DNA of 64,000 bases, from positions 1 to 64,000 of the forward strand of contig NZ_BCSI01000003.1 of assembly GCF_001570785.1 (NCBI RefSeq), given 5' to 3'. This document shows, one piece after another, positions 46,423 through 54,635 of the stretch. The DNA is from Dermabacter hominis NBRC 106157 (GTDB lineage: Bacteria > Actinomycetota > Actinomycetes > Actinomycetales > Dermabacteraceae). Each line of letters starts with the position of its first letter. Within the stretch, counting starts at the first letter, position 1. The position numbers and the translations under genes were made by a program. Under the pieces are notes generated by a model that saw only the letters and a list, made by a program, of their open reading frames with translations, had not been told where the DNA came from and did no database searches.

Positions 46423-47112
46423 TCAAGGTTGCGGTTTGCCCTCGATGCGTGTCCGTAGTGAATTCTTCGATGCCACCCAAGCACCGACGTCCGGTGAAAC
46501 CCAAGATGCGAGATCTATAGCCGCCCGAAGGTCCCGGCCCAGATCCCGGCGATGGATCGGCTCGTGGTGCGCGGCACGGTTTCGCACGGTGGTGAGCTGC
46601 TTCATGCGCAGCGCGACTTCTTCTTGTCGTGTGCGGAGATCTTTGGCCCCGTGCGGAAACGCAGTATGAGAAGCCGGTACCCAGAGGCGGGTGAGGTAGC
46701 GCGACTCGACGAGAAAGCGCCAGAATCCCAATGTTAGTTCTGAGATCACACTGCCATGCACCTCCGGCCGTCTTCCATGCCGCGTTGCCCGGCGTCTCGC
46801 TTTTGCTATGTCTGATTGTGCATGCGCGTCAAGCGGCGCCGCATCGAACCACGACGCCCCTGGGTGGTGAGTGGAGACCCATGCGATGAGTGACGCGTCA
46901 AGTGAATTTCGAACGATGACCTCCACCATCGACGTCAGCTCTAAGACAGATGCTGAAGCTCTCATGTTCCACTCGTATAGGTGGAGTGCTTGGCGGACGC
47001 TCCCATCGGTGTCAGTAAAATACGATGCTAGGCGCTCCGATGTAATGAAGCGACAGATCTCATCCGCATTCCACGCCCCGCAGTTGGGTACGGCGTTCGG
47101 AACCGTAGACAT
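46423..47112 (-). CDS. Abi-like protein with HEPN motif
   Basis: A 229-residue protein of the Abi_2 type. It shows LTSMVEVIVRNSLDASL (~60-76), ELTLGFWRFLVESRYLTRLW (~125-144) and the HEPN-type R-x4-H motif RNRAAHHEP (R177 to H182/H183), the predicted RNase site. An abortive phage-defence role follows from the family, not from this sequence. The ATG at 47112 was chosen because similarity starts there; the frame is open to 47301. It is an isolated gene between repeats, next to initiator tRNA, with lower GC than its neighbours. Confidence 0.75.
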   Translation of the reverse strand: MSTVPNAVPNCGAWNADEICRFITSERLASYFTDTDGSVRQALHLYEWNMRASASVLELTSMVEVIVRNSLDASLIAWVSTHHPGASWFDAAPLDAHAQSDIAKARRRATRHGRRPEVHGSVISELTLGFWRFLVESRYLTRLWVPASHTAFPHGAKDLRTRQEEVALRMKQLTTVRNRAAHHEPIHRRDLGRDLRAAIDLASWVSPDVGAWVASKNSLRTRIEGKPQP

Positions 47113-47320
47113 CGCGACTCCCCCTACGTTATAGTCATCTCCGAAGACCCCGGAACGATCACTGGCCTCGGCTATATCGCCGGGGTTACATTTTGTTCGT
47201 ACCGTCTGGGGTTCCGGTGACAACCCCGCCCCTGTCGTGAATTGTGCGTGTGTACCCCCGATGTGGTTGCTTGTTCGGCACCTCGCCGTTGTGTCAGCCA
47301 ACCGTCGTGCGTATTTCAGA

Positions 47321-47397: not shown

Positions 47398-47596
47398 GAC
47401 GAGGGCGTCCGGTAGGGGGGCAGTAGCGAGTAGTGGCTCCGGGAACTATCCGGGCTCGCGATGCGCGTGGGCGTGAAGGTTCGTGAATTGCAGGGGAGTA
47501 CACTCGTGGGCGGCGAGGCGCGTGCGGACAATGTTATTTAGCTGTGCAGGTTCGTGCGAGTGCTCGCTTTCCAATACTTTCGACGAAGGAAGAATC

Positions 47597-49246
47597 GTGT
47601 CGCCGCTTCTTGAAACCCGTCCTATTCGCCGCCGCACCGCTCTCGCCGGACTTTCAGCTGGTGCCGTTGCCGGCCTCGCTGCCTGCTCGAATGCAGGGGA
47701 TGGAAAGAACGGCGGTAAGGCCTCTGGTAAGGGTGGCGCGCAGTCACCGAGCACGAGTCCCGAACCGTCGACCGAGTGGACGAGCGCAGATGCTTCGCTC
47801 CTCGAAATGGTTGACGTTACGCTCAACCCCGAAGCCGAAGGCAAGACCGTCACGACCCCGCGATTTCCGAAGGCACGCAATCTGACCCAGGCGACCGAGG
47901 TCGTGCGAAACCGTCTGCTGCGCGAGGCGCACTGGGGAGACATCGAGAAGGCCGAGATCAAGGCTACGATTCTCGCCGCCGCTCAGGACGTCGTGGGCGT
48001 CGCGGTTGTGGGGAGCCTCGGCGACGAGGCGGATGTGCCCTGCTCGATCTGGTACGACGCACGAAAGAAGCAGTCGTTTGCCCCAGCCGCGCTTATCGAG
48101 GCTGCGAAGTGGGGCGAGTTTGCGAAAGCCGTCCACGATGCCGCAGGCAAGGCCAAGGTTGATGCCTCGGCCGTCGATAAAGCTCTCATTGACAAGAGTG
48201 CCCCGTACGGCAATGGCCCGGCGATGGCATTCAATCCCGAGGGCAAACTCGTGCTCGCGTTCCGTACGGGAGCGGCCGGTGAAGCCCCGGCACGGCTCGT
48301 CGTCGACGCGGAACCGTTCCTTTCTGATCTCGGAAAGCTCGCGAAGGACGCGAGCGCAAAGCCCGCGAAATTCACGGGTGAGCCGAGCGAAGAACTCGAC
48401 CACTTCACGCCTAAGCGCCATGTTGCAAAGCCGATCGATTCGCCGAACCGACCGTCGGACGGTTCCGAAGCGGCGAGCCCCGCGGCATCGGATGGTGGAC
48501 AGTCCGACGGCGCCGAGGGCGAAGGCGCCTCGACTGAGGTACCGTCGCCCACTCCCGGTGGTGCGGTGCGCCCGACTACCGCGATCGGCTACGACGTGTT
48601 CCTCGAGCACTGCGTCGCTCTGACCTATGATGACGGCCCCGGCGCCCGTACTCCCGAGCTCCTTGACGTCTACAAGAAGGCGAAAGCGGCAACGACGTTC
48701 TTCGAAATGGGCAACAGCATCAAAGAGCACCGCAAGACGACTCTCATGGTCGCGGCAGCGGGCTTTGAACTGGGCAACCACTCCGTGACCCACCCCGACC
48801 TCAAGCGCAAGTCGCGCGAGCGCGTGGAGAAGGAAGTCAACGAGAACTCTGATCTTCTCGCGGAGACCACGGGTTTCGAGCCGCTTCTGTTCCGCCCGCC
48901 GTATGGCAGCCACAACGAAACCGTGGATGAGATTGTTGCCTCTCGCGGCATGGCGATCGTGCAGTGGGACGTCGACACTCTCGACTGGAAAACGAAGGAC
49001 ACGGCCAAAACGATCGAGGCAGCCGTCGAGGGTGCAAACGCCTACGCCGAGCCGATCGCTCTCATGCACGATATTCACGATTCGACCGTGGATGCGGCTG
49101 AGCAGATCCTCAGCCAGGTCAATGACGCCGGCTATATTCCCGTGACGGTCAGCGAGCTGACTCTGAACACGGGCGGCCTCGAGGCCGGACACGCCTACTG
49201 CTCCGGCACCGGCAAGAAGCAGAACGGCTTCAACTGTAAGGGCTGA
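47597..49246 (+). CDS. Polysaccharide deacetylase lipoprotein
   Basis: A 549-residue exported protein. The start is the GTG at 47597 (AAGGAAG upstream). The signal RRRTALAGLSAGAVAGLAAC has twin arginines and a lipobox cysteine. Residues ~50-300 form an RsiV/DUF3298-like domain, followed by a Pro/Ser linker. The NodB domain (from ~330) has TYDDGPG, the metal histidines in HSVTHPDL, RPPYGSHN, and LMHDIHD at the end. Likely acts on peptidoglycan or cell-surface glycan, by family. Confidence 0.88.
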   Translation: MSPLLETRPIRRRTALAGLSAGAVAGLAACSNAGDGKNGGKASGKGGAQSPSTSPEPSTEWTSADASLLEMVDVTLNPEAEGKTVTTPRFPKARNLTQATEVVRNRLLREAHWGDIEKAEIKATILAAAQDVVGVAVVGSLGDEADVPCSIWYDARKKQSFAPAALIEAAKWGEFAKAVHDAAGKAKVDASAVDKALIDKSAPYGNGPAMAFNPEGKLVLAFRTGAAGEAPARLVVDAEPFLSDLGKLAKDASAKPAKFTGEPSEELDHFTPKRHVAKPIDSPNRPSDGSEAASPAASDGGQSDGAEGEGASTEVPSPTPGGAVRPTTAIGYDVFLEHCVALTYDDGPGARTPELLDVYKKAKAATTFFEMGNSIKEHRKTTLMVAAAGFELGNHSVTHPDLKRKSRERVEKEVNENSDLLAETTGFEPLLFRPPYGSHNETVDEIVASRGMAIVQWDVDTLDWKTKDTAKTIEAAVEGANAYAEPIALMHDIHDSTVDAAEQILSQVNDAGYIPVTVSELTLNTGGLEAGHAYCSGTGKKQNGFNCKG

Positions 49247-49248
49247 CC

Positions 49249-50016
49249 CTACGAACCTTCGCGTGAGCGCCCGAGTGGCTGGTCAAGCACGTCGACTGAG
49301 AGGAACGCGCGGCGGAACTCTCGCTTGTTGAGTGTGACCCAGGCACCCGGGCGCCACGGGTTACGAAGCACGATCTCGCCGGTATCAGGCTTCGCACCCA
49401 CAACCGCCATGACGTGCATCGGCGGAATAGCTCCCGACTGTCGCTTGCGCGAGAGCGCGGGGGAGAACATGTGGGTGGAGGCGACGATGGGCCGCCTCTT
49501 GGCGAGAAGGTCTTCGACTTCGCCGGGGGAGGGAAGCGTGAGACGCGTCGAGGCGCGCACGCCGCTAAGCGCTGGAAACCCCCATTTCGCAAAGCCCCGC
49601 GCAATCCACGCGTATGATCCCGCGAACTCCGCTGCGCACGCCTTCTCGAGAATTCCGGGCCAGCCGGGGCCGCCCCCTTCTTCTGTCGCGTAGGCGAAGT
49701 GGCCACCATCGGTGGCAGGAAAGCGCATATTCACGCTGCGCCACGCCGGGGCACCCTCCACGAACACACGCGCGAGCGCTTTGGGTGACCCGGGCTGAAC
49801 CTTGATGGCGTTCGCAAAAAACTCGGGATCGAGCGCGTGAATTGCGAGCATCGGCGCCATGAGCCAGCAATCGCCCAGGGCACCCTGGCGCGGCCGCCGC
49901 GAGAAATTCAGGACGCCGCTCCAAGCCTCGTAGTGATCAGCGTGCGGCCCCAGCGGCGGCTCCCCACTCTCGCGTGCATGCGGCGGGAAGAGTGCGGTCA
50001 GCGTGTGGCGAATCAA
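49249..50016 (-). CDS. Calpain-family (C2) cysteine protease
   Basis: A 255-residue single-domain protein with a complete papain-like triad in calpain context: QGALGDCWLMAP (oxyanion Q44, catalytic C50), PPMHVMAVVG (H201) and RNPWRPGAW (N219). No signal peptide or calcium-binding domain is seen. A TTG at 50016 behind AAAGGGG is the likely start. Calpain domains are uncommon in bacteria; the substrate is unknown. It converges on the deacetylase gene 3 bp away. Confidence 0.8.
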   Translation of the reverse strand: MIRHTLTALFPPHARESGEPPLGPHADHYEAWSGVLNFSRRPRQGALGDCWLMAPMLAIHALDPEFFANAIKVQPGSPKALARVFVEGAPAWRSVNMRFPATDGGHFAYATEEGGGPGWPGILEKACAAEFAGSYAWIARGFAKWGFPALSGVRASTRLTLPSPGEVEDLLAKRRPIVASTHMFSPALSRKRQSGAIPPMHVMAVVGAKPDTGEIVLRNPWRPGAWVTLNKREFRRAFLSVDVLDQPLGRSREGS

Positions 50017-50046
50017 GCGTCGGACCCCTTTCGCAGTTAATAAAAC

Positions 50047-50077
50047 CCGGGCACGAGCGCAAAACGCACGTGCCCGG
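50047..50077 (-). terminator. Terminator after the phosphofructokinase gene
   Basis: On the minus strand CCGGGCACG, 13-nt loop, CGTGCCCGG, followed by GTTTTATT. Confidence 0.8.
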
Positions 50078-50111
50078 TCCTCTCAGGCGATCATCCCGCC
50101 TAACGGGGAGA

Positions 50112-51332
50112 TCAGTGCTTCTCGGCCTTCACGAGCTTCTGGCCCGTGCGCTCGAGAACGCCGGCGAACCATTCCTGGTCCACGTCGAAGGCCTTGTGAC
50201 CGGCGATGCGCTCGAACTCGATCGCGCGAAGCTGGTCGCCCTTTTCTTCGTCGTGGCCGATCACGCCGGTGCCGCCTTCAAGGGCGACCTGCACGGCGAG
50301 GTCGGTCATCGACTTGATGAGGCGCAGGTCATCAGCGTTAGCTTTCGCAGAGCGAGCGAAGTAACCGGACTTTTGCACCATGACCTTTTCGGCCCCGAGG
50401 CGCTCCGCGAACTGCTTCGCGAACCACTGGCCGGGGTTGATCTTGTCGAGCTTCACGTGGCCGAACGGATCGCGCTCGACCTCTTCGCCCTTGGCTTCGA
50501 GCTCGGCGATGATCTCGGGGATGCCGGCGCCCTCCGAGAGGAAGATGTTGACGCAACCGACCTCGTCCATAACCTTCTTGAGGCGCTCCGCTTCACCCTC
50601 GATATCGAGCGCAAGCTCGGGCAGGAATACGGCGTGGACATCCCACCGACGCTCATCGTGGCCGATCGACGGCAGCCACTGCTGCTTCGAATGCCAATCC
50701 TGGTAGTAGCGTGCGGCCTCCGCCGTGAGGTAGCCGCATGCGCGACCCATGATCTCGTGGATGATGAGCATGCGCGGGTTCGAGCCGTTCTCCGCAATAA
50801 CGTTTTGCGCGAAGAGGGAGGTCTGCTCCGCGGCGGTGCGAGCACCGAGCGACTGGCGGATCGGAACGATGTCGTTGTCGATCGTCTTCGGCAGACCCAC
50901 GACCTGGAGCGGGTAGTTGTTGTCGGCGAGGTACTTCGCGAGATCAGCGGCGGTTGTGTTCGTGTCATCGCCACCGATCGTGTGGAGCACGTCAACGCCA
51001 TCAGCCTTGAGCTTGTTCGCAGCGACCTCGAGGGCATTCTCGCCCTCCTTGATGAGGCCGCGCTCGACGAGGTTCTTCGTGTTTGTGAGCTTCACGCGTG
51101 AGTTGCCAATGGGCGAGCCGCCGTAGTTGTGCAGGAGGTGCGCGTTCTTGCGGGCCTCATCGTCGATCACGATCTTCTCGCCGGAGAGCAGGCCCCAGTA
51201 GCCGTGCTTGTAGGCGATGATCTCGATCTCGGGGTTCAGCTCGTTATAGCGCTCGATCAGGCCGCCGACGGCGGACGAGAGGCACGGGGCGTAACCGCCC
51301 GCGGTCAGGAGAGCAACGCGCTTGACGCTCAT
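50112..51332 (-). CDS. 6-phosphofructokinase, PPi-dependent type
   Basis: About 406 residues. LLTAGGYAPCLSSAVGG starts the nucleotide-fold domain. The phosphoryl-donor site is GGDDTNTTA, with GGDD (Asp instead of the Gly of ATP enzymes) characteristic of pyrophosphate-dependent PFK, and PKTIDND carries the catalytic base. Reversible conversion of fructose 6-phosphate and PPi to fructose 1,6-bisphosphate is expected. The ATG at 51332 follows GGAAGGA; the frame upstream is not similar. Donor preference is inferred from motif only. Confidence 0.88.
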   Translation of the reverse strand: MSVKRVALLTAGGYAPCLSSAVGGLIERYNELNPEIEIIAYKHGYWGLLSGEKIVIDDEARKNAHLLHNYGGSPIGNSRVKLTNTKNLVERGLIKEGENALEVAANKLKADGVDVLHTIGGDDTNTTAADLAKYLADNNYPLQVVGLPKTIDNDIVPIRQSLGARTAAEQTSLFAQNVIAENGSNPRMLIIHEIMGRACGYLTAEAARYYQDWHSKQQWLPSIGHDERRWDVHAVFLPELALDIEGEAERLKKVMDEVGCVNIFLSEGAGIPEIIAELEAKGEEVERDPFGHVKLDKINPGQWFAKQFAERLGAEKVMVQKSGYFARSAKANADDLRLIKSMTDLAVQVALEGGTGVIGHDEEKGDQLRAIEFERIAGHKAFDVDQEWFAGVLERTGQKLVKAEKH

Positions 51333-51429
51333 GAGGGTCCTTCCCAGGTGGTGTGGTGCGCGGCGATAACGCCGCACGTGTGCGCCACTATTCTACAGTT
51401 TTCTCCTTCGCGTCCGCCGAGGCAGAAGC

Positions 51430-52221
51430 TTAGCGAGAGGACTGCAGAGCCTCGAGGATCGCGCCGTGAAGTGGCCCGTTACTCGCGATTGCACTCGCCC
51501 CGTAGGGGCCGTCAGTACCGTCGAGATCGGTGAAGCGCCCGCCTGCTTCGCAAATAATCGGTACGAGAGCCGCCATGTCGTGGAGCTTGAGGGAGGGTTC
51601 GATCGCGGCGTCAATTCCCCCCTCGGCAAGGAGCATGTAGCTCCAAAAATCGCCAAACCCGCGGGTGCGTTCGACTCTCTGAAGGAGGTTCACGAACTCG
51701 CGGAGTTTCCCGGCGCGCGCCCAGCCCTCGAGGCTCCCGTAGGACAGCACGGCTTGCTCAAGATGCTCGGTGGAGGAGACATGAAGGCGTTGGGCGGCAG
51801 ACAGGCGCGGGCCCGTGAAGGCCCCGGCTCCGACGGCTGCCCACCACCGCCGATTCAAAGCGGGCGCTGACACGACGCCCACGACGACCTCGCCGTCTTC
51901 CTCGAGGGCGATGAGCGTCGCCCACACGGGAACGCCGCGCGCGAAGTTCGCGGTGCCGTCGATGGGGTCGATGATCCACTTTCGGTTGCTCTCGCCGTGC
52001 GAGCCGAACTCTTCGCCGATGACCTGGTCGCGGCTGCGGGTACGAGAAAGCTGAGCGCGAATGAGTTCTTCCGCCGCTCGATCGGCATCGGTCACGATCG
52101 AGTCGTCGTCCTTGCGCTCGCGCGTGAGGTCTTCAGACTTGAAACGCGACATCGTGAGCTGGTCGACGGAGTCGGCGAGAACGTGGGCGAGGCGGATATC
52201 GTCCTGGTGTGCCGAGGCCAT
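51430..52221 (-). CDS. Inositol monophosphatase family protein (HisN-like)
   Basis: A 263-residue Mg-dependent, Li-sensitive-type phosphatase. The metal sites are GEEFGSHGE, the central WIIDPIDGTANFARG (DPIDGT) and the C-terminal WSYMLLAEGGIDAAIEP. The TDADRAAEELI segment and neighbouring aroA/rsgA match the actinobacterial histidinol-phosphatase (HisN) context, but inositol phosphate cannot be excluded. Confidence 0.87.
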   Translation of the reverse strand: MASAHQDDIRLAHVLADSVDQLTMSRFKSEDLTRERKDDDSIVTDADRAAEELIRAQLSRTRSRDQVIGEEFGSHGESNRKWIIDPIDGTANFARGVPVWATLIALEEDGEVVVGVVSAPALNRRWWAAVGAGAFTGPRLSAAQRLHVSSTEHLEQAVLSYGSLEGWARAGKLREFVNLLQRVERTRGFGDFWSYMLLAEGGIDAAIEPSLKLHDMAALVPIICEAGGRFTDLDGTDGPYGASAIASNGPLHGAILEALQSSR

Positions 52222-52251: not shown

Positions 52252-53310
52252 CTACAGGGCCCAGGGGTCATTGGTGCGCAGCGTCGAGTTGAGGCGCCTG
52301 AAGCTTGCGAGTCGGGCGGGGCCGGCGCTTCCCGCGCGCCCGTCGGCGACGAGTGCATCGAGGGCGCAGCCCTCGTCGGCACTGATGTGGGTGCAGCCGC
52401 GCGGGCACTCCTCCATGAGGGGAGCGAGGTCCTCGAATGCGGATTCGAGTTCTTCGGGGCTCACGTGGCCAAGGCCGAACGAGCGTACCCCGGGCGTGTC
52501 GATCACCCAGCCGTCGCTGCCCGGAAGGCGCAACGCGAGGGCGGAACTCGAGGTGTGGCGCCCGCGGCCCGTGACGGCGTTGACATGGCCCGTTGCGCGG
52601 TCGGTGCCCGGCACTAGCGCGTTGATGAGCGTCGATTTGCCGACCCCCGAGTGGCCCACGAGTACGCTCAGATGCCCGCTGAGACGTTCGCGTAGCGCGT
52701 CGATACCGGCGATGCTGCCGTCGGCATTCATATGAGTGGTGAGGTGCTCGATGCCGAGCGGCGCGTACCTTTCGAGGAACGTCGCGGGGCCAGCGAGGTC
52801 GGCTTTCGTGAGGCACAGCAGTGGCGTGATACCCGCGACATAGGCAGCGACGAGGCAGCGGTCAATCATGCCTCCGCGCGGTTCGGGGTTCGCGAGGGCC
52901 GTCACGATCACGAGGGTGTCAGCGTTAGCGACGAGGGGGCGCTCGCTCGCGTCGTCATCGTCGGCGCTTCGACGCAGGAAACTTGTGCGTTCGCCAACCT
53001 CGACGATCCGGGCGATCGTGTCGGTGCGCCCGGAGGTGTCGCCCGTGAGACGCACGAGGTCGCCGGGCACGATGGGGGTGCGCCCGAGGGCACGCGCGCG
53101 CATAGCGGTCACTGCGCGTTCGTTCTCGGTGCCTTCCTCCGCGATGGTGCGCCAGCGGCCACGGTCGACTCCCACGACACGCGCGGTGATGGCATCGGCA
53201 TAGGTGGGGCGTTCCTTCGTGCGGGGTCGGGAGCCGCGACGATTGGGGCGCGAACGCACCGAGGATTCATCAAAATCCTCGTAGTTTGTGAGATTCCCTG
53301 CGCGCCTCAC
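52252..53310 (-). CDS. rsgA: Ribosome small-subunit GTPase RsgA
   Basis: A 30S maturation GTPase of about 352 residues: an OB domain after a basic N-terminal tail, a circularly permuted GTPase with CLTKADL (G4) before GHSGVGKSTLINAL (G1) and DTPGVRSFGL (G3), and a zinc finger C-x4-C-x-H-x6-C in ECPRGCTHISADEGC. The GTG at 53310 overlaps the aroA stop (GTGA), so the frame to 53355 is not needed. Confidence 0.92.
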   Translation of the reverse strand: MRRAGNLTNYEDFDESSVRSRPNRRGSRPRTKERPTYADAITARVVGVDRGRWRTIAEEGTENERAVTAMRARALGRTPIVPGDLVRLTGDTSGRTDTIARIVEVGERTSFLRRSADDDDASERPLVANADTLVIVTALANPEPRGGMIDRCLVAAYVAGITPLLCLTKADLAGPATFLERYAPLGIEHLTTHMNADGSIAGIDALRERLSGHLSVLVGHSGVGKSTLINALVPGTDRATGHVNAVTGRGRHTSSSALALRLPGSDGWVIDTPGVRSFGLGHVSPEELESAFEDLAPLMEECPRGCTHISADEGCALDALVADGRAGSAGPARLASFRRLNSTLRTNDPWAL

Positions 53311-54635
53311 CACGTGTTCCCCGCGGGGCTTTCCGTGTGCAGCATTGAGGTCCACATTCCCACGAAGTCAGGAAGGGTCTTGTTCGTCGTGTCGACGTTC
53401 ACGACCCGAACGCCGGGAACGCGCAGCCCGATGATCGCGGCGGCGGTTGCCATGCGGTGGTCCTTGTAGGTTTCGACAACGGTGCCCGTCATGGGGCCCG
53501 GTGTGATCTCGAGGAAGTCCTCGCCCTCGTGAACACGCGCGCCAAGTTTTGTGAGCTCGACGGCGAGGGCGTGGACGCGGTCCGTCTCGTGGCCGCGCAG
53601 GTGTCCGATGCCTGAAAGGCGACTCGGAGTGTCGGCGAGAGCGGCGAGGGCTGCGATGGTGGGGGTGAGCTCGCCGACGGCCGACAGGTCAATATCGATC
53701 CCTCGAAGGGGACCCGTGCCCGAAAACTCGACGTCCGGCCCGATGCGCTCGACGCGCGCGCCCATGAGGGGGAGGATCCTTCGGAATTCATCTCCCGGTT
53801 GGGTTGTCTGTTCCGGCCAGTTCTCGATCGAGACGGTGCCGCCGGCAACGAGGGCCGCCGCGATGAACGGGCCAGCGTTGGAAAGATCGGGCTCAACGGT
53901 AACCGGATCGGGCAGGCGCAGCTCGCCTGGTGTCACGGTCCATTCGTGATGACCATCCGTGACCTCATGGCGAGCGTCGATGCCGCACTCGCGAAGGAGT
54001 GCGAGGGTCATCTCGATATGGGGGAGTGAGGGGAGGCGCTCGCCGACATGGCGAATGGTGAGGGGGGAATCGGCGCGGACGGCCGTGAGAAGGAGGGCAG
54101 AGACGAACTGGCTCGAGCCGCTCGCATCGATCGTCACCGTGCCGCCGCGAAGGCCGTTGCCGTGCACCGTGAAGGGCAAGAACCCTTCCTGGCCGTGGCA
54201 TGTCACCTCGACGCCTTGCTGGCGAAGCGCATCGAGAAGCGCTGCCATGGGGCGCACGAGCGCGCCCTCATCGCCCGTGAACGTCACGGGTCGGCCCGAG
54301 AGCGCGGCAAGCGGCGGCACGAAACGCATGACCGTTCCCGCAAGGCCGCAGTGAATCTCGAGCGGCGTCTCGTTATCGGTGCTCGGTGCGCCGGGATTGA
54401 GCGGCTCGACGACGAGCGCGCGATCACTCTTGCGGACATTCCCGCCGAGCGCTTCGAGCGCTTCGATCATGAGGCGTGAATCGCGAGACGCAAGTGCCCC
54501 CACGAGCGCGGTGGGTGTGCTCGCAAGAGAGGCGAGCACAAGCCACCGATTCGTGAGGGACTTTGAGCCGGGAATGCTGACGTGAGCGTCGATGGGCCCG
54601 TGGGCAACGGGCGCCGTCCACTGAACGTCAGACAC
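53307..54635 (-). CDS. aroA: 3-phosphoshikimate 1-carboxyvinyltransferase (EPSP synthase)
   Basis: Shikimate pathway step from shikimate 3-phosphate and PEP to EPSP. The 442 residues show IPGSKSLTNRWLVLAS, LAGTVMRFVPPLAAL, RPMAALLDALRQQGV, EPDLSNAGPFIAAALVA and ETYKDHRMATAAA. The pairing rsgA-aroA with translational coupling is common in actinobacteria. Confidence 0.95.
   Translation of the reverse strand: MSDVQWTAPVAHGPIDAHVSIPGSKSLTNRWLVLASLASTPTALVGALASRDSRLMIEALEALGGNVRKSDRALVVEPLNPGAPSTDNETPLEIHCGLAGTVMRFVPPLAALSGRPVTFTGDEGALVRPMAALLDALRQQGVEVTCHGQEGFLPFTVHGNGLRGGTVTIDASGSSQFVSALLLTAVRADSPLTIRHVGERLPSLPHIEMTLALLRECGIDARHEVTDGHHEWTVTPGELRLPDPVTVEPDLSNAGPFIAAALVAGGTVSIENWPEQTTQPGDEFRRILPLMGARVERIGPDVEFSGTGPLRGIDIDLSAVGELTPTIAALAALADTPSRLSGIGHLRGHETDRVHALAVELTKLGARVHEGEDFLEITPGPMTGTVVETYKDHRMATAAAIIGLRVPGVRVVNVDTTNKTLPDFVGMWTSMLHTESPAGNTW

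Follow-up and report, generated by a model that had tools for sequence, protein, structure and literature searches.

A compact calpain gene behind the PPi-type phosphofructokinase gene in Dermabacter and Brachybacterium

The window, a 64,000-nucleotide stretch of Dermabacter hominis DNA, carries a gene for a compact calpain (peptidase family C2) at 49249..50016 on the minus strand, and in 36/36 genomes that bear an orthologue, the gene for a PPi-type phosphofructokinase lies immediately upstream of it on the same strand. This fixed link is new here and offers a practical handle on bacterial calpain function. The original prediction described the calpain without its strand; our analysis adds the strand, the phosphofructokinase link and a second calpain class in Brachybacterium.

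Sequence and predicted structure of the calpain

The calpain ORF reads from 50016 down to 49249 and encodes 255 aa from a TTG start, with a ribosome site (GAAAGGGG) 8 nt upstream. TTG is also the start codon in two relatives (G001 and G003), and ATG stands at the aligned place in a third (G002). The catalytic positions hold Q44, C50, H201 and N219. PF00648 (Peptidase_C2) was the sole Pfam family above its cut-off (E 1.7e-7; 31.1 bits, cut-off 23.8); the one other Pfam row at E <=1 was a sub-threshold match to C39_2 that covers part of this core. The 255 aa contain no additional Pfam domain, C2L and penta-EF-hand domains being absent, and NCBIfam gave no row at E <=1. In a phmmer search the ORF matched m-calpain at E 8.1e-7 over query residues 44–226. 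All 15 PDB sequences that it matched at E <=1 are calpains, as are the 19 distinct PDB sequences that a 21-row profile matched at E <=0.01 (best 1.1e-11).

An AlphaFold2 model from the 21-row alignment reached a pLDDT of 85.2 and a pTM of 0.85, with pLDDT below 50 only in residues 1–14 and 252–255. The top 40 Foldseek rows obtained with this model were calpain chains (best E 1e-12, TM 0.65 by query), and VIA-align placed 223 of its residues on the human calpain-1 core 1zcm with Z 21.5 and an rmsd of 2.5 Å; among the families listed in that comparison, the best non-calpain was staphopain, at Z 10.6. The model confidently predicts the PC1/PC2 protease-core fold, with both halves of the core and without the C2L and EF-hand parts. 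Because of the AlphaFold2, Foldseek and VIA-align results, the papain-like core for which the original prediction proposed a structural check stands unrefuted, and its stand-alone calpain with a complete Q44/C50/H201/N219 set is borne out by the sequence, the PF00648 profile and the predicted structure. A further histidine, H182, lies in the model after strand 177–181 and before the loop leading to H201, in what we take to be the region of the calpain gating loop.

The protein shares the predicted protease-core fold and the Q/C/H/N set with human calpain-1 and calpain-2 but differs from both in having no C2L domain, no penta-EF-hand domain and no calcium-site residues at the three positions tested. 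Its core is ~64 residues shorter than that of a classical calpain (model residues 14–246 versus chain residues 57–353). PMC4631099 lists eight calcium-site residues of the calpain protease core. At all three alignable positions of that list (3/8, leaving out Ile89, Gly91, Asp299, Gln319 and Glu323 as not alignable) the calcium-site residue is absent: Glu175 corresponds to P117 and Glu292 to A225 in the phmmer alignment, and Asp96 corresponds to R41, which lies 3 residues upstream of the aligned stretch and was read by extension. The lack of a calcium domain claimed in the original prediction holds with respect to the EF-hand and C2L domains of Pfam. So does its lack of a secretion signal: Kyte-Doolittle hydropathy gives no sign of a signal peptide or membrane segment, the highest 19-residue mean being 1.09 and falling within the core, at residue 50. 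With no signal apparent, the protein is probably cytosolic. No WXG100 row was found for the protein at E <=1, and just 43 residues precede Q44.

Rawlings (2015, PMC4631099) described calpains that consist of the peptidase domain only in two species of Brachybacterium, which belongs to the same family as Dermabacter: B. faecium (258 aa) and B. paraconglomeratum. The window's protein falls in the same length class and likewise holds the peptidase domain only. Since such forms are already in print for Brachybacterium, the window's calpain is not a new type; it is a Dermabacter-type orthologue of these proteins and, as a protein, ordinary for its clade. In B. paraconglomeratum, record NZ_ML133860.1 (L008) contains a gene for a 255-aa orthologue that follows the phosphofructokinase gene; from species and length we infer this orthologue to be the protein described by Rawlings. 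Relative to the Brachybacterium orthologues, the window's calpain has a less basic start (MIRHTLTAL versus MRTWRRTLRAL) and no long linker, and its gene sits behind a terminator-like hairpin. The view that compact cytosolic calpains are poorly characterised in actinobacteria is fair for their function, which PMC9380684 states to remain unknown in bacteria, whereas the compact type itself is already in print for Brachybacterium (PMC4631099). The matches listed in the open-licence literature included no report of a calpain from Dermabacter or of a bacterial calpain linked to phosphofructokinase.

Gene neighbourhood and the intergenic gap

The gene upstream of the calpain (50112..51377, minus strand) encodes a pyrophosphate--fructose-6-phosphate 1-phosphotransferase, the PPi-type phosphofructokinase, which matches NCBIfam NF005121 at E 1e-217 and 722.6 bits against a cut-off of 395. 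It is preceded on the minus strand by genes for an inositol-monophosphatase-family phosphatase (51430..52221; histidinol-phosphatase-like, PF00459, with TIGR02067 just below cut-off) and for the RsgA GTPase (52252..53355; TIGR00157 above cut-off). A polysaccharide deacetylase gene on the plus strand (47483..49246; PF01522) is convergent with the calpain gene and marks the 3' end of this same-strand string.

A survey of neighbouring genes in homologues had been proposed with the original prediction, and it is this survey that found phosphofructokinase upstream throughout, the enzyme being called in other genomes by 81–100% identity to the window's protein. The inositol-phosphatase-family and RsgA genes follow further upstream in 21/21 loci tabulated. 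Behind the calpain, a convergent polysaccharide deacetylase gene is present in 3/4 Dermabacter genomes (including G001 and G003), and a convergent ORF that by eye is SGNH-hydrolase-like in 14/17 Brachybacterium loci. Within 4 kb, 16/21 loci also share a third convergent ORF, which is UPF0182 in the window. As the surrounding gene order is conserved anyway, the phosphofructokinase link may reflect inherited position and not shared function. Distances between calpains correlated with distances between the phosphofructokinases (r 0.82 over 36 genomes, r 0.74 over the 32 from Brachybacterium), and 0/2000 permutations reached either value. Such a correlation is expected of a gene passed on vertically at one locus, and the calpain of the Dermabacter/Brachybacterium family looks vertically inherited at a fixed site.

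Calpain and phosphofructokinase are separated in the window by a 95-nt gap (50017..50111, minus strand), which holds a GC-rich hairpin, then TTTTATT, then GAAAGGGG 8 nt before the TTG. The hairpin folds with an MFE of -44 kcal/mol (z -2.89; 3/200 shuffles fold as well), a terminator-like match runs from 50058 to 50045, the region having three such matches where 1.0 would be expected, and the T-rich tail ends ~22 nt before the calpain start. We predict that this Dermabacter hairpin is intrinsic-terminator-like. The same layout is found in G001 and G003. When all possible start codons were taken as candidates, a calpain start lay less than 60 bp after the phosphofructokinase stop in 32/36 genomes, the others (G000, G002, G003 and G026) being at 95–171 bp; the Brachybacterium distance was 4–52 bp in 31/32 genomes. 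The start corresponding to the window's TTG is 95–96 bp past the stop in the window, G001 and G003, and in G001 it is the third candidate, at 96 bp. No sigma-70-like promoter was found in 49100–50300, where 0.1 would be expected by chance, a scan that says little for this organism.

Elsewhere in the window, a 292-aa ORF on the minus strand (46423–47301) is 95% identical in a D. indicis record and gave neither a Pfam row at E <=0.001 nor an NCBIfam row at 1e-5; it contains a VRNRAAHHEPI stretch that may resemble Abi-like proteins.

Conservation, losses and other calpains

To place the gene in its family we used 47 genomes, comprising the window's genus (g1), Brachybacterium (g2) and the genera g3–g6. 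Orthologues are present in 36/47, namely 4/4 of g1 and 32/38 of g2, counting that of G036, the final residues of which are cut off by a contig end. A search matched 38/47, these 36 with G018 and G030, the latter via other calpains. Some of the calpain loci listed are one place entered twice. The gene is missing or broken in 8/47 (G008, G014, G018 and G042–G046), and three genomes (G019, G030 and G033) are not assessable because in their incomplete assemblies the linked phosphofructokinase is missing or a fragment. In G008 and the five g3–g6 genomes (G042–G046), phosphofructokinase is kept and no calpain was found in the stretch fetched behind it; a weaker profile match in G045, of g6, lies at a different place. 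G014 (L081) has a decayed calpain remnant directly after phosphofructokinase, and the copy in G018 (L075) stops matching after ~120 residues and meets a stop ~130 bp from the contig end, which is either an interruption or an assembly fault. Losses in genomes that keep phosphofructokinase indicate that the calpain gene is not essential.

The species-representative collection gave a protein of 79% identity in CYUG01000011.1 (Dermabacter indicis) and three further loci, all Brachybacterium, at 43–44%; identity to the 17 g2 rows of our alignment was 39–46%. Most g2 orthologues begin with a basic stretch such as RTWRRTLRAL, and their linker varies. The 21-row profile had matches in 59/396 sampled genomes of the order and 45/394 sampled genomes of the class. 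Within these samples no orthologue was found outside g1 and g2, the best match beyond these two genera having an E of 3.7e-26; the phosphofructokinase-linked orthologues scored 1.4e-71 or better in one of these searches.

Orthologues in two other g1 genomes are 98% and 79% identical to the window's calpain, with dN/dS of 0.23 and 0.14, and over six pairs dN/dS was 0.14–0.34, one pair having a dS of 1.6, near saturation. The gene evolves under purifying selection. Q44, C50, H201 and H182 are invariant in 36/36 genomes. Position 219 is N in 31/36 and D in 5/36, a substitution that may still function in calpains according to PMC4631099. The W that follows NP is retained in 15/36 and replaced in 21/36, a loss that may mean altered catalysis. 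We had considered H182 unique to the clade and dropped the idea; by eye, a His stands there also in L065/L097, and we therefore claim only its invariance within the clade.

At other loci, Brachybacterium genomes have as many as three more C2 rows, of which some may be fragments, and some of these additional calpains are ~390 aa. Sub-threshold WXG100 or WXG100_2 rows were found at the N-terminus of 3/5 that were scanned (L067, L069 and L070). These three share PF00648 and a family of organisms with the window's calpain but differ in having an extra N-terminal ~150 aa or more, lying at other loci and forming a separate clade. In a tree of 35 rows (17 of the 36 phosphofructokinase-linked proteins included, L066 untrimmed and L071 a short ORF), which was rooted for drawing only and drew program warnings about long branches and, for five rows, skewed composition, the 17 formed one group (100/99) separate from the WXG100-like proteins. 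Nearest to this clade were four calpains of genus g12, from the same order (L098, L099, L102 and L104; 97/95), a join that may be false, as the tree links long branches there. The g12 calpains have a similar C-terminal ending, and the two of them that were scanned gave no WXG100 row at E <=0.1; they differ from the window's calpain in an extra N-terminal region and another locus. The neighbours of L098 are ribosomal proteins S13, S11 and L17 with RpoA (Pfam), and the same holds for L099, L102 and L104 (BLASTP), so that calpains of g12 occupy another fixed housekeeping position, beside rpsM-rpsK-rpoA-rplQ.

In contrast to the patchy distribution of calpains in print, most species of this family retain the gene, and its position is fixed; again unlike the printed picture, g2 can hold several C2 genes. 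The additional g2 calpains (L066–L073) also contrast with a printed statement of one calpain per bacterial species. Brachybacterium, Streptomyces and Frankia are actinobacteria. PMC4631099 places them under Firmicutes, which bears on that paper's reading of calpain distribution.

Proposed role and alternatives

We favor, with moderate confidence, the reading that the protein is a minimal calcium-independent cytosolic cysteine endopeptidase of the calpain type that carries out limited regulatory cleavage of one or a few cytosolic proteins. The enzyme would be proteolytically active without calcium, would stay in the cytosol and would make restricted, regulatory cuts in its few substrates there. 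In Brachybacterium the phosphofructokinase transcript would also serve for the calpain; in Dermabacter, read-through past the putative terminator would probably yield it at a lower level. A role tied to its glycolytic neighbour is possible. A narrower proposal, that the calpain processes or turns over phosphofructokinase or another glycolytic protein, draws on the unbroken same-strand linkage of the two genes and seems improbable to us: G008, G014, G018 and the five g3–g6 genomes retain phosphofructokinase but have no intact calpain gene behind it, and the nearest other clade lies elsewhere, beside ribosomal protein and rpoA genes.

A papain-fold enzyme that no longer cuts proteins and has turned binding protein, acyl-transfer enzyme or deamidating enzyme would be consistent with the D at position 219 in some genomes, the frequent replacement of the W after NP and the invariance of H182, and calpain homologues that are not peptidases exist (PMC4631099). 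We consider such a change of activity rather unlikely, given that Q, C and H are invariant in 36/36 and dN/dS is low. Export, with the calpain acting on other cells as a type VII-like or otherwise secreted effector whose signal went unrecognised, is suggested by the WXG100-type N-termini, sub-threshold, of 3/5 other g2 calpains scanned, by sub-threshold WXG100 rows elsewhere in 3/4 g1 genomes and by WXG100 domains on bacterial calpains already in print (PMC4631099). Yet the window's protein itself has no WXG100 row at E <=1, its clade is separate from the WXG100-like proteins (100/99), none of the four g1 genomes has a WXG100 match above cut-off, and the gene's place is fixed among housekeeping genes. 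We give export little credence and, for want of a WXG100 region and in view of the separate clade, set the secreted effector aside as the main explanation. Proteases are common effectors in bacterial defence, which lends some appeal to a defence or cell-death protease; that reading strikes us as very unlikely and was rejected, the calpain having no PADLOC or PHROGs match at E <=1 and a fixed position among housekeeping genes. A chagasin-type inhibitor (PF09394) was also sought: there was no match in the four g1 genomes, and rows in 4/47 family genomes were none of them above cut-off.

In the boldest reading, which we regard as a long shot, the protein would be a vertically inherited housekeeping calcium-free calpain within a PPi-phosphofructokinase expression unit, with a clade-invariant H182, and its conserved regulatory cleavage would be tied to central carbon metabolism. 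If true, a cellular role could be defined for this calpain of bacteria, and the protein would be a present-day relative of the ancestral calpain core. The patchy distribution of calpains has been read in print as gene transfer. One compact calpain that occupies a constant position in 36 genomes, is under constraint and has natural losses beside it makes the role of calpains in bacteria testable.
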